From positions 1-50,284 of the forward strand of contig JAKOTQ010000103.1 in the NCBI GenBank assembly GCA_029776205.1: a stretch of 50,284 nucleotides of DNA. The letters run 5' to 3'. The notes beneath the pieces are model-generated. The model worked only from the letters and a program-made list of their open reading frames with translations, ran no database searches and had not been told where the DNA came from. Both the position numbers and the translations under genes were made by a program. Source of the stretch: Bacillota bacterium. GTDB lineage: Bacteria; Bacillota; UBA4882; UBA8346. Of this stretch, positions 13,427 to 48,332 are shown piece by piece (position 1 is the first letter of the stretch; each line of letters begins with the position of its first letter).

Positions 13427-13561
13427 AGACAGTCACCTCCAACAATAAAAAAACGGGTGCATAATCCACCCGCTCCAAAATGCAACAATCACTCTTGCAC
13501 TTATTAACCTGAAAGCTTCGGCTTCAGGTGAGAAGCGGATGGCTTCTACTTGATTAAAACT
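13427..13561 (-). promoter_or_regulatory. L20-type leader of infC-rpmI-rplT with a transcription attenuator
   Basis: The ~135-nt leader contains a hairpin (CCTGAA...TTCAGG region, about 13508-13530). Near its end is an intrinsic terminator: CGGGTG, 7-nt loop, CACCCG at 13454-13472, then T7 (minus strand). GTGCA at about 13496-13500 can pair instead with TGCAC at 13457-13461, which would break the terminator. This matches the known design of the Bacillus L20 leader, in which L20 binding favours termination. The mapping of the L20-binding part is inferred, not aligned to Rfam. Confidence 0.75.
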
Positions 13562-22179: not shown

Positions 22180-22440
22180 CGACAATCAATAATAAAAAAA
22201 CTCATCCCAAGATTGGGACGAGCTTTAACCCGTGGTACCACCCAGCTTAGAAGGAAAAGATATCCTTCCGCTTTAGGCCCGATAACGGTGGCTGCCGGCG
22301 ATCCCTACTGTATTCAGGACGCAACTCCAGGGTGATTTTCCTGTTCTTGTACGTCACCGGCTTGCACCTGCCCCGGCTCTCTGTGGACGCCTGCAGAACC
22401 ATACTCTTCCCCTTCAACGTCGATCGATAAAATAAATTTA
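22180..22440 (-). promoter_or_regulatory. T-box riboswitch controlling ileS (isoleucine)
   Basis: The minus strand carries the T-box core TGGTACCACGGGTT (about 22228-22241). After it comes a terminator CTCGTCCCA, loop ATCT, TGGGATGAG, T7 (22194-22222). The 5' part has the stem I landmarks AGTA (near 22406) and AGAGAGC. A likely specifier is ATC at 22334-22336 in GGAAAATCACCC, an isoleucine codon followed by a purine. Uncharged tRNA-Ile should stabilise the antiterminator. Specifier placement is by eye. Confidence 0.93.
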
Positions 22441-45251: not shown

Positions 45252-45393
45252 CACATCTTCTCCTTATATCCCTTTGATTTAGTATTCTAGAAATACGGTA
45301 GAACATAAGAATTTCCTTCCACAACGCAAAAAAACTTTTCATTCTTTTGATGTTTCTTATTATGATCATTCTCTGATGAGCGTATAAGCAAAA

Positions 45394-45414
45394 TGGAGGC
45401 CTAATCGGCCTCCA
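45394..45414 (-). terminator. Terminator of the 40-residue membrane protein gene
   Basis: Minus strand TGGAGGCC, loop GATTA, GGCCTCCA then TTTTGC, ~30 bp past the stop. Confidence 0.8.
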
Positions 45415-45444
45415 TCGGGAACTTCTGAACCAAACTGACGTCAA

Positions 45445-45567
45445 TCAACCTCCAGTCGTCATTTTGTTATAAACGATAAAAGCTAACATAGCTAAGAATG
45501 CGACCAGGATTAACCAACGAACGATCCCGATTTTTTGCTCTTCCGGTTGATTATTGTTATTAAACAT
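45445..45567 (-). CDS. 40-residue single-pass membrane protein behind the triple-repeat leader
   Basis: From the ATG at 45567 (AAGGAGG 7 nt upstream) the product is 40 residues: a short polar head (MFNNNNQPEEQKIG), then one transmembrane helix (VRWLILVAFLAMLAFIVYN) and KMTTGG. The longer ORF from 45648 reads through the leader and is not credible. I do not recognise the family. It is the only gene in the transcript that starts at the consensus promoter 46037-46065, so the elaborate leader presumably controls it. Confidence 0.7.
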   Translation of the reverse strand: MFNNNNQPEEQKIGIVRWLILVAFLAMLAFIVYNKMTTGG

Positions 45568-45612
45568 ATTTTCCCCTCCTTTCCAAAAAAACTCAGTATA
45601 GGATAAAATAAA

Positions 45613-45709
45613 GTGGGAGCCATGGATAAACCAAGAGCTCCCCCCCAAAAAGCTTCGTTTTTCTTGGAATCGAAGGTCTAACTTCGTCCAACCGTCAGTT
45701 TGGTATATT
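45613..45709 (-). repeat. Leader repeat unit 3 (nearest the gene, most diverged)
   Basis: Same unit with loop TTAGAC in hairpin 1, a shorter terminator stem (GGGAGC/GCTCCC core) and a broken T run (TTTATTTTATCC), so termination should be weaker here. Confidence 0.75.
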
Positions 45710-45764
45710 CGGTTTTAAATTTATAGAGCTTTTCACCCATCTTTTTTAAAATGAGATCAAAAAA

Positions 45765-45862
45765 GTGGGAGCTCATAGAGTCAACCAAGAGCTTCCCACC
45801 CAAAAAGCTTCGTTTTTCTTGGAATCGAAGATTACTTCGTCCAACCGTCAACGTGCTATATT
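45765..45862 (-). repeat. Leader repeat unit 2
   Basis: Nearly identical to the unit at 45909-46007; terminator stem GTGGGAAGCTC/GAGCTCCCAC with one bulged A, followed by T6. Confidence 0.8.
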
Positions 45863-45908
45863 CAATTTTCGATTTATACAATCACTTATTAAAATTGAGA
45901 ACAAAAAA

Positions 45909-46007
45909 ATGGGAGCTCATAGAATCAACCAAGAGCTTCCCACCCAAAAAGCTTCGTTTTTTCTTGGAATCGAAGATTACTTCGTCCAACCGTCAATGTG
46001 CTATATT
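45909..46007 (-). repeat. Leader repeat unit 1 (promoter-proximal)
   Basis: Terminator stem TGGGAAGCTC/GAGCTCCCA with one bulged A, followed by T7. Units 1 and 2 differ at only a few positions. Confidence 0.8.
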
Positions 46008-46036
46008 TAATTTTTAATTAACAATCGGTTAATTTT

Positions 46037-46065
46037 ATTATAACGTGACTAAGATATGTTGTCAA
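46037..46065 (-). promoter_or_regulatory. Consensus sigma-A promoter of the triple-repeat leader
   Basis: Minus strand TTGACA (46060-46065), exactly 17 nt, TATAAT (46037-46042): a perfect match to the consensus, so the unregulated initiation rate should be high and control must come afterwards, in the leader. Confidence 0.85.
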
Positions 46066-46133
46066 CATCCGAAATGAATACAATATTTGTAAGATAATTT
46101 AAACGCTTCTCTCAAGAGTGACTGTTATGAAAT

Positions 46134-46610
46134 TTATGCATTGGGTTGACGAGCCTTTCCGCTATACTGATGCACCACGATCTTAAAGACTGCGACAGCG
46201 CTTACCATCTTCTCATCAAAGGAAAATTCCCGGCCAGTCTGGTGCTTCATCAGCGCTGACAGCGCAGTTTTCTTCTCTTCAATATCATCGATAACTACTG
46301 CCGTACCGTTTCCGATGATACTTTTATAATAGTAACTGTATTTGCAGGCCGAATCACCGGTGATCAACGCATGTCCGCAATCCATTTCGATACACACCTC
46401 AGGATTTTCCTTTAAAGCATCAACCTTCCGGCCCTCTTTGGCACTGTGAAAATATAAAATTAAGGTATCCTCTTCGAAAGCGTACCCAAAATTCATCGGA
46501 ACGATATAAAGCCCATCCCGATCCTGCATCGCGATTCGGCACACCTTGCATTCTTCGATAATCTTGATTAATTCGGATTTATCAGTGACTTCCCGGTCTT
46601 TTCGGCGCAT
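46134..46610 (-). CDS. Pyridoxamine 5'-phosphate oxidase-family flavoprotein (NimA-like)
   Basis: 158 residues from the ATG at 46610 (AGAGG 6 nt upstream; the ATG at 46616 abuts the ribosome site). Split beta-barrel FMN-binding fold: CRIAMQDRDGLYIVPMNFGYAFEEDTLILYFHSAKEGRKVDALKENPEVCIEMD (~24-77), and YYYKSIIGNGTAVVIDDIEEKKTALSALM. Matches the small PNPOx-like group that includes NimA; the substrate is unknown. Single gene. Confidence 0.9.
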   Translation of the reverse strand: MRRKDREVTDKSELIKIIEECKVCRIAMQDRDGLYIVPMNFGYAFEEDTLILYFHSAKEGRKVDALKENPEVCIEMDCGHALITGDSACKYSYYYKSIIGNGTAVVIDDIEEKKTALSALMKHQTGREFSFDEKMVSAVAVFKIVVHQYSGKARQPNA

Positions 46611-46805: not shown

Positions 46806-47378
46806 TTACAATTGATCCAAAACCTCTTTATCTTTCTTTTCCGGATCTTCTTTTAAATCTTTGCTCTCATAGATTATTGCGAGAGTAATTTCATAATTCT
46901 CACCCGTGAGCATCAATCCGACTTCAGTCGTAGGCGTCTCCCATCTCGCCACAAAAGCAAGATGACCCATAGCAACAGCCATTCCATATAGTTGATGATC
47001 ATTTTTAAAAAGATCATTGCTCCAAATGACTTCATCGTCCAAAGGTGTCCCATATTTCTTTATCAGAAGTTCTTTAAGTCTTCCATAATCCAAAATATAA
47101 TTGTTTTGATTCGTATGCCATATATCAAAAGCATATAAACCTGTCATTAACCGGTTATTTTGAAACTTGTAAAAAATACTGCAGTCTTTATTATCCAAAG
47201 AACTTTTATACTTCAATACCTCGGATGTCCTCCCAACCGGTTTGCCCGATTCCGACCGCATGACCTCTTCCTGCGACATCCCCCATCGGGCCTTGCGAAA
47301 ATCATACTCGTCAGCCGCAACAACCTGTACGCTCACAAACACTAAAATTGCAATAAAAAGCAGAAAATACTTTTTCAA
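46806..47378 (-). CDS. Secreted protein of unknown function, paralogue A
   Basis: From the TTG at 47378 (after GGAGGGAGGGG) the product is 190 residues. A signal peptide (LKKYFLLFIAILVFVSVQVVAA) leads into DEYDFRKARWGMSQEEVMRSE, then alternating strands with FDIWHTN (~85), LLIKKYGTPLDDEVIW, and YGMAVAMGHLAFVARWETPTTEV. Paralogue B next door has the same length and layout. The FRKxxWGMSxxEV opening recurs in secreted proteins of anaerobic Firmicutes, but I know no function. Each copy has its own terminator. Confidence 0.75.
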   Translation of the reverse strand: MKKYFLLFIAILVFVSVQVVAADEYDFRKARWGMSQEEVMRSESGKPVGRTSEVLKYKSSLDNKDCSIFYKFQNNRLMTGLYAFDIWHTNQNNYILDYGRLKELLIKKYGTPLDDEVIWSNDLFKNDHQLYGMAVAMGHLAFVARWETPTTEVGLMLTGENYEITLAIIYESKDLKEDPEKKDKEVLDQL

Positions 47379-47462
47379 AAAATCCCCTCCCTCCTTCCAT
47401 ATCGTAACATTACAGGTATAATTTATCAATAACCGGTTTCTTGTACAGCAAAACAAGGAAAA

Positions 47463-47488
47463 TAAAAACTCCTGTTTCAACAGGAGTT
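47463..47488 (-). terminator. Terminator of secreted paralogue B
   Basis: Minus strand AACTCCTGTT, loop GA, AACAGGAGTT, then TTTTATT. Resembles the terminator at 48219-48242, part of the duplicated unit. Confidence 0.85.
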
Positions 47489-47514: not shown

Positions 47515-48087
47515 TCATAATTTGTCCAAGACCTCTTTATCTTTCAATTGGGGATCTTCATTTATCGTTTTACTACTGTATATGGCCACCAAATTAATTT
47601 TATAATTTTCTCCATAAAGGGTTAACGTAATTTCAGTGGTTGGCGTTTCCCATTTTGCACCGTATACAAGATGGCCCATACCTATAGCGATTCCATACGA
47701 TTGATCATCTTCTTTAAAAAGTTCATCTTTCCAATGAACATTATCTTCAACAGGTGTTCCGTATTTCTTCGTCAAAAGTCCTTTAAACTTTTTAAAATCC
47801 AAAATATAATCATTTGGGTTGGTATGCCAGATATCAAAGTAATACATACCACCAATTAATCGGTTATTTTCAAATCGAAATAAAACATAACAATGCTCGC
47901 CATCCAAAAAATCAGTAAATACCAGTGCCTCAGAGTCCCCATCAATAGGTTGGCCCGGTTCGGATTTCGTAACCTCTTGCTGGGACATCCCCCATTTCGT
48001 TTTGCGGAAGTCATAATTTCCCCCCGCAACGATCTGAAGGCTCATCAATACTAAAATTATAGTTAAAAGCGTCACATATTTTTTCAA
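47515..48087 (-). CDS. Secreted protein of unknown function, paralogue B
   Basis: From the TTG at 48087 (after GGGGAGAGG) it is 190 residues, the same length as paralogue A and about 60% identical by eye. Signal peptide (LKKYVTLLTIILVLMSLQIVAG), NYDFRKTKWGMSQQEVTKSE, YFDIWHTNPNDYILD, KKYGTPVEDNVHWKDELF and MGHLVYGAKWETPTTEITLTLYG mirror the other copy. Unknown function. The pair looks like a tandem duplication including promoter and terminator. Confidence 0.75.
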   Translation of the reverse strand: MKKYVTLLTIILVLMSLQIVAGGNYDFRKTKWGMSQQEVTKSEPGQPIDGDSEALVFTDFLDGEHCYVLFRFENNRLIGGMYYFDIWHTNPNDYILDFKKFKGLLTKKYGTPVEDNVHWKDELFKEDDQSYGIAIGMGHLVYGAKWETPTTEITLTLYGENYKINLVAIYSSKTINEDPQLKDKEVLDKL

Positions 48088-48218
48088 AAAGCCTCTCCCC
48101 TTTTCCCACATCATAGCACTGCAAGAACATTTTATCAATTCACAATTTTATAATCGAATAACTTCAATTTTGACATACCTTTTTCACTAATAATCCAACC
48201 AGAAGAAAGGCAACAAAA

Positions 48219-48256: not shown

Positions 48257-48332
48257 TGGCGCGCCTGGCACGAATCGAACGTGCGGCCAACGGATTAGAA
48301 GTCCGTTGCTCTATCCCCTGAGCTACAGGCGC
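48257..48332 (-). tRNA. tRNA-Arg (anticodon TCT), CCA encoded
   Basis: 76 nt on the minus strand. Acceptor GCGCCTG/CAGGCGC, D-arm TAGCTCAGGGGATAGAGCA, anticodon loop CTTCTAA (anticodon TCT, complement at 48297-48299), T-loop GTTCGATTC, discriminator G, then CCA encoded in the DNA. Reads AGA codons. Confidence 0.96.

Follow-up and report, generated by a model that had tools for sequence, protein, structure and literature searches.

Which regulatory RNA occupies the long leader of a 40-codon gene in this Bacillota genome, and what does it control? In the window, by which we mean the whole 50,284-nt stretch of DNA analysed here, the minus strand from 46065 to 45567 comprises a promoter and a leader with three repeats. 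The initial annotation, made from the letters alone, considered these repeats the best candidate for an undescribed regulatory RNA, recognized no known aptamer in them and named a dispersed repeat as the alternative. Here we report the identification of the RNA class, its predicted switching element and target gene, its counterparts in related genomes, and a likely regulatory mechanism.

Organization of the locus

The features of the locus are collected in Table 1. The promoter proved to be as perfect a sigma-A promoter as first described, and both its TTGACA and TATAAT elements are retained in a sister species of the same genus. Measured from a putative start near 46030 up to the ATG (45567), the leader spans ~463 nt, and the earlier reading of ~460 nt with three repeated units was confirmed, the conserved unit of ~90-100 nt being present in three copies spaced 144-155 nt apart (145, then 153-155). 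Copies 1 and 2 are 97% identical, and copy 3 shares 86% and 88% identity with the others. Every repeat consists of a first hairpin followed by a terminator-like hairpin with a U-tract. In the alignment of the window copies the P1 stems are kept and the P1 loops vary, in agreement with the proposal that structure is under selection. No ORF with a clear Shine-Dalgarno sequence was found between the units of the leader.

Table 1. Features of the promoter, leader and small gene, in the order of transcription
Feature	Position	Strand	Details
Sigma-A promoter, TTGACA-17-TATAAT	46037..46065	-	12/12 consensus positions
Na+-I riboswitch aptamer, copy 1 (distal)	45934..45991	-	RF03071, 48.1 bits
Copy 1 terminator with U-tract, its hairpin sharing the 3' strand of P2	45903..45942	-	fold -29.8 vs -18.3 kcal/mol without terminator; alignment
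Na+-I riboswitch aptamer, copy 2 (middle)	45790..45846	-	RF03071, 49.1 bits
Copy 2 terminator hairpin and U-tract	45759..45799	-	fold -31.7 vs -16.8 kcal/mol without terminator
Na+-I riboswitch aptamer, copy 3 (proximal), GGGGGG replacing GGGUGG	45636..45693	-	RF03071, 33.5 bits, E 3.7e-5
Copy 3 terminator hairpin, interrupted U-tract (UUUAUUUUAU)	45603..45646	-	fold -27.9 vs -15.7 kcal/mol without terminator
Shine-Dalgarno AAAGGAGG of the 40-aa gene	45575-45582	-	sequence
40-aa single-pass membrane protein MFNNNNQPEEQKIGIVRWLILVAFLAMLAFIVYNKMTTGG	45445..45567	-	sister ortholog 98% identical; pS 0.42, pN 0.01; best hydropathy window 2.56
Intrinsic terminator after the small gene	45392..45416	-	10-bp stem and T-rich tail; equivalent stem-loop in sister species

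Three near-identical tandem copies could in principle belong to a dispersed repeat that carries its own terminators. When one unit was used as a DNA query against the whole genome, only the three copies at this locus were recovered, the next match having an E-value of 0.68 over 18 bases; in the sister species the array is kept in synteny and under selection. As no copies are found beyond the locus, the dispersed-repeat explanation is refuted, and we give it practically no weight. Upstream of the promoter, at 46806-47480 and 47515-48138 on the same strand, the window encodes a pair of adjacent paralogs, secreted or lipoprotein-like, with the common motif YDFRK(A/T)(R/K)WGMSQ(E/Q)EV.

Identification of the leader units as Na+-I riboswitches

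The Rfam scan that had been suggested as a check was run on positions 45500-46150 (651 bases) and returned three matches in the leader (E 4e-9 to 4e-5), far beyond chance, all to RF03071, the family named 'Sodium' in Rfam, which is the Na+-I (DUF1646 motif) riboswitch. Copies 1 and 2 score above the gathering score of 40.5 and copy 3 below it. No other Rfam family was detected in this interval at E up to 1, and the three units are the only RF03071 matches in the whole genome. Because every unit matches RF03071, we assign all three by sequence to the Na+-I riboswitches and not to an undescribed RNA, which contradicts the initial annotation on this point, two of the matches exceeding the gathering score. 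It had recognized no T-box sequence in the leader, and Rfam gives only Sodium there. T-box, Li+-I and c-di-AMP leaders are classes with published tandem occurrence (PMC9481103, PMC12452182), but the probability that the leader belongs to any of them is close to nil, as only Sodium matches appear at this threshold and the T-box of the window lies elsewhere. Outside the locus, the Rfam matches of the window, all on the minus strand, are that T-box leader (22211-22426), a ribosomal protein L20 leader (13439-13557) and a tRNA gene (48260-48332).

A covariance model was built from an alignment of ten aptamers and searched against 58 sources, yielding 76 matches that include all window copies. Across these 76 related aptamers, the P1 stem, with its UUG:CAA base and bulge, and the P2 stem form standard pairs in 96.6% of cells, and 14 of the 17 pairs show changes on both sides. 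None of 500 shuffles was as good as the real P1/P2 pairing, nor was any slide. The homologous leaders with two-sided pair changes that the initial annotation had asked for thus exist, in an alignment that was fitted to the P1/P2 structure; the covariation is therefore supportive and not independent evidence, the family itself being already established.

Terminators and the predicted switching element

The 3' strand of P2 (GGGUGGGAAGCU) doubles as the 5' strand of the terminator in all three units of the window. RNA folding of each unit favors the terminator by ~11-15 kcal/mol over folds in which its 3' strand is blocked, and the RNA that precedes this 3' strand folds into P1 and a P2-like hairpin. 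According to these folding models, the mutually exclusive pair is the aptamer P2, through its 3' strand, versus the terminator, and not CCAAGA:TCTTGG. The initial annotation was right in reading the leader as a cis-acting regulatory RNA built of three serial transcription-attenuation units, while its CCAAGA:TCTTGG antiterminator did not survive comparison: the pairing is possible in 3/3 window copies and in 0/2 sister-species copies, and it is absent in other relatives. An undescribed regulatory RNA that switches through this antiterminator would explain why both strands occur in all three window copies, but with an RF03071 match in every unit, and with TCTTGG missing from both sister-species copies and from the other relatives, it is very improbable. 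In the Na+-I riboswitch of Clostridium acetobutylicum kefB, the layout with overlapping terminator and P2 is that of a Na+ ON switch, in which Na+ promotes readthrough (PMC9337991).

The small membrane protein and its surroundings

Comparison of the 40-aa gene with its ortholog in the sister species reveals 10 synonymous changes and 1 nonsynonymous change. Because pS (0.42) so exceeds pN (0.01), the ORF is, judged by its substitution pattern, a real protein gene under purifying selection. It is probably monocistronic, because the intrinsic terminator at 45392..45416 comes next. The conserved ORF and the terminator that follows it agree with the initial description of a leader serving one gene for a single-pass membrane peptide.

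Searches of the 40-aa protein against Pfam, NCBIfam and PDB gave no meaningful match, and outside the genus only matches with E above 0.2 were obtained. The OAD gamma subunit was considered as its identity and rejected, as there is no OAD_gamma match and separate OAD beta and gamma-like genes are present elsewhere in the genome; those genes have no RF03071 match. From its regulation and its single membrane span, the protein probably modulates an ion-translocating complex in the membrane.

Directly downstream of the small gene lies the meso-diaminopimelate dehydrogenase gene ddh (TIGR01921; 44274-45254, minus strand). The gene dapB is a published Na+-I target. Control of ddh via readthrough from the leader was considered and is unlikely, because a terminator separates the small gene from ddh in both species.

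Apparent array turnover and the atypical third copy

The sister species (G005, locus L006) has an array of two aptamers and their terminators at the corresponding position, together with the same promoter elements, a near-identical 40-aa protein, a comparable following terminator and ddh as the next gene. Its two units are 90% identical and window copies 1 and 2 share 97% identity, as against 82-89% for most between-species pairs; window copy 3, at 86-88%, stands apart. Since copies within a species are mostly more alike than between-species pairs, these identities suggest a turnover of copy number and copy identity in the array through duplication or conversion.

Of the 76 aptamers, 72 retain the U of the GGGUGG loop, window copies 1 and 2 among them. 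This U is replaced by G in window copy 3, in copy 1 of the sister species and in a weak outlier (L066), and by C in one further aptamer. Each array of this genus therefore holds one copy with an atypical loop, at a position that differs between the species (copy 3 in the window; copy 1, the distal one, in G005). Because copy 3 scores under the gathering cut-off and lacks the almost invariant U of the loop, its binding of Na+ may be weak or absent.

These features raise the possibility of a mixed array, in which copies 1 and 2 would be Na+ switches and copy 3 would be decayed or altered in specificity, so that a two-Na+ cascade would be combined with either constitutive partial termination or input from a second ion. 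The near invariance of the loop U, the restriction of the G variant to one copy per array of the genus and the weak outlier, the interrupted U-tract of copy 3, which fits a weaker terminator, and the published statement that specificity changes in some DUF1646 RNAs are not ruled out (PMC9337991) all favor such an arrangement; on the other hand, copy 3 has been preserved with an aptamer that is otherwise intact, and the different array positions of the variant in two species fit no fixed role. We consider a mixed array unlikely on balance. Still more doubtful is the specific proposal that the loop-changed copy (GGGUGG to GGGGGG) of the triple Na+-I array senses another ion or concentration, so that the small membrane protein would be subject to a multi-threshold or two-ion decision.

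Na+-I arrays and targets in other genomes

Same-class arrays were surveyed in roughly 600 distinct genomes, with stricter filters where a search took in more than 40 genomes. An independent Na+-I doublet was found in G448 (L065 1501-1728; G448:C6:20152-20378), with aptamers 169 nt apart and a 62-69-aa zinc-ribbon-like protein encoded by the next ORF. A genus from a different family has Na+-I triplets in G563 and G561 and doublets in G562 and G563, located before a CitMHS/NhaD-like transporter gene; the aptamers of these loci (L101, G563:C80:56500-62600; L102, G561; L103, G562) are ~265-300 nt apart and the transporter genes are paralogous. In G563 three consecutive CitMHS/NhaD-like genes are preceded by 3, 2 and 1 aptamers, and some units of G563 and G562 contain an additional, partial CAAG...GGGGTGG element. 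Locus L067 (G473:C45:5568-5823) has two weak Na+-I matches that lie ~150 nt apart on opposite strands, one of them before an ABC transporter ATPase-like gene; they may form a divergent pair or have arisen by inverted duplication.

Two sister genera, represented by the genomes G004 (L005, G004:C44) and G001 (L008, G001:C5), have Na+-I leaders before ~50-aa single-pass proteins with no Pfam family. These two proteins are a related pair (62% identity over 29 aa), and alignment found no homology between the 40-aa protein of the window and the G004 protein. The G001 aptamer scores below the RF03071 gathering score. Na+-I leaders in both genomes also precede a gene that we take to be of the oxaloacetate-decarboxylase alpha type, a name given from context and not by a profile match.

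Across 84,980 genomes, an exact pattern requiring two Na+-I cores at a distance of 100-130 nt was found 27 times, and none of the 17 matches that were scanned with Rfam was Sodium. This pattern is strict and missed the true G448 doublet, so the scan cannot show absence. Seven Clostridiales MAGs (L029, L033, L035, L036, L039, L041 and L046) share a 148-bp tandem-pattern match that is not Na+-I by Rfam and is probably a conserved coding stretch.

Proposed mechanism

The leader has the organization that defines a pseudo-cooperative (same-ligand) tandem riboswitch, namely at least two complete units of the same class with their own platforms, gaps under 300 nt (here 87 and 96 nt between aptamers, with a terminator after each) and no intervening ORF before one downstream gene. 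Building on the aptamer identity, the terminator overlap, the conservation of the array and the reality of the gene, we assign a probability of roughly 0.85 to the reading that three Na+-I switches in series gate the 40-aa membrane-protein gene as an AND cascade with sodium-induced output.

Presuming Na+ binding by these copies and ON polarity, at low cytoplasmic Na+ the P2 3' strand of each aptamer would pair with the downstream GAGCUCCCA(C) strand to form an intrinsic terminator. When Na+ is bound, P1 and P2 would be held together and the terminator blocked, allowing the polymerase to reach the next checkpoint. Under the presumed series logic, readthrough would be required at every working checkpoint, so that, compared with one switch, the leader would leak very little, respond more steeply and have a raised apparent threshold. 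At high Na+, readthrough at all checkpoints would yield a dedicated sodium-induced small membrane protein, its function being the putative one given above.

For three identical independent 1:1 switches, calculation (not measurement) moves the half-response from 1 to 3.85 K and narrows the 10-90% range from 81-fold to 32-fold, and an assumed 5% leak per terminator becomes 0.0125% over three. The principal benefit of the series, as modeled, would be low leak and a raised threshold. A steeper response is predicted for independent units with separate expression platforms (PMC9481103). The whole-leader fold permits many pairs between units, so that here we only infer their independence. If copy 3 is impaired, the leader would behave more like a cascade of two switches plus a partial terminator; were its aptamer dead and its terminator still functional, expression would be reduced whatever the Na+ level.

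Comparison with known systems

In a 2022 census of tandem riboswitches, same-class arrays include Li+-I (6 doublets, 1 triplet), Mg2+-I and others (PMC9481103, Table 1), the Li+-I triplet preceding nhaD (PMC9646797), and Na+-I is given only in combination with c-di-AMP (PMC9481103). Within the open main texts, same-class Na+-I arrays are absent from the published census (PMC9481103, Table 1). The switch class is known, and the stacked Na+-I arrangement and its target gene appear undescribed so far. Together with its two-copy counterpart in the sister species and with the doublets and triplets of other lineages, the window locus would add Na+-I to the list of same-class tandems and would show that cells stack Na+ switches, presumably for a tight sodium threshold. 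The sole Na+-I leader of the window genome serves one small membrane protein; together with the leaders before the ~50-aa proteins of two sister genera, it points to small membrane proteins as effectors of the sodium response.

Na+-I riboswitches such as that of C. acetobutylicum kefB (PMC9337991) have the same P1/P2 aptamer with GGUUG...CAAG and GGGUGG, a terminator that competes with P2, and a membrane-protein gene downstream; the window differs in having three units in series, a stand-alone 40-aa single-pass target and one copy without the loop U. The Na+-I/c-di-AMP tandem gate of Dehalobacter sp. CF (PMC9337991) is likewise a tandem leader with a Na+-I unit and one terminator per aptamer, but it responds to two different ligands, whereas the units of the window are all of one class. 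Among the Li+-I doublets and the one triplet before nhaD (PMC9646797, PMC9481103), the triplet also lines up three alkali-ion riboswitches that each have a terminator, although its aptamer is the nhaA-I motif, its alkali-ion ligand is putative and its target gene is another one. The triple-tandem c-di-GMP-I riboswitch Bc3-5 (PMC4759541) differs in ligand and aptamer, and resembles the window in combining three riboswitches of the same class in one 5' leader, with a more digital response.
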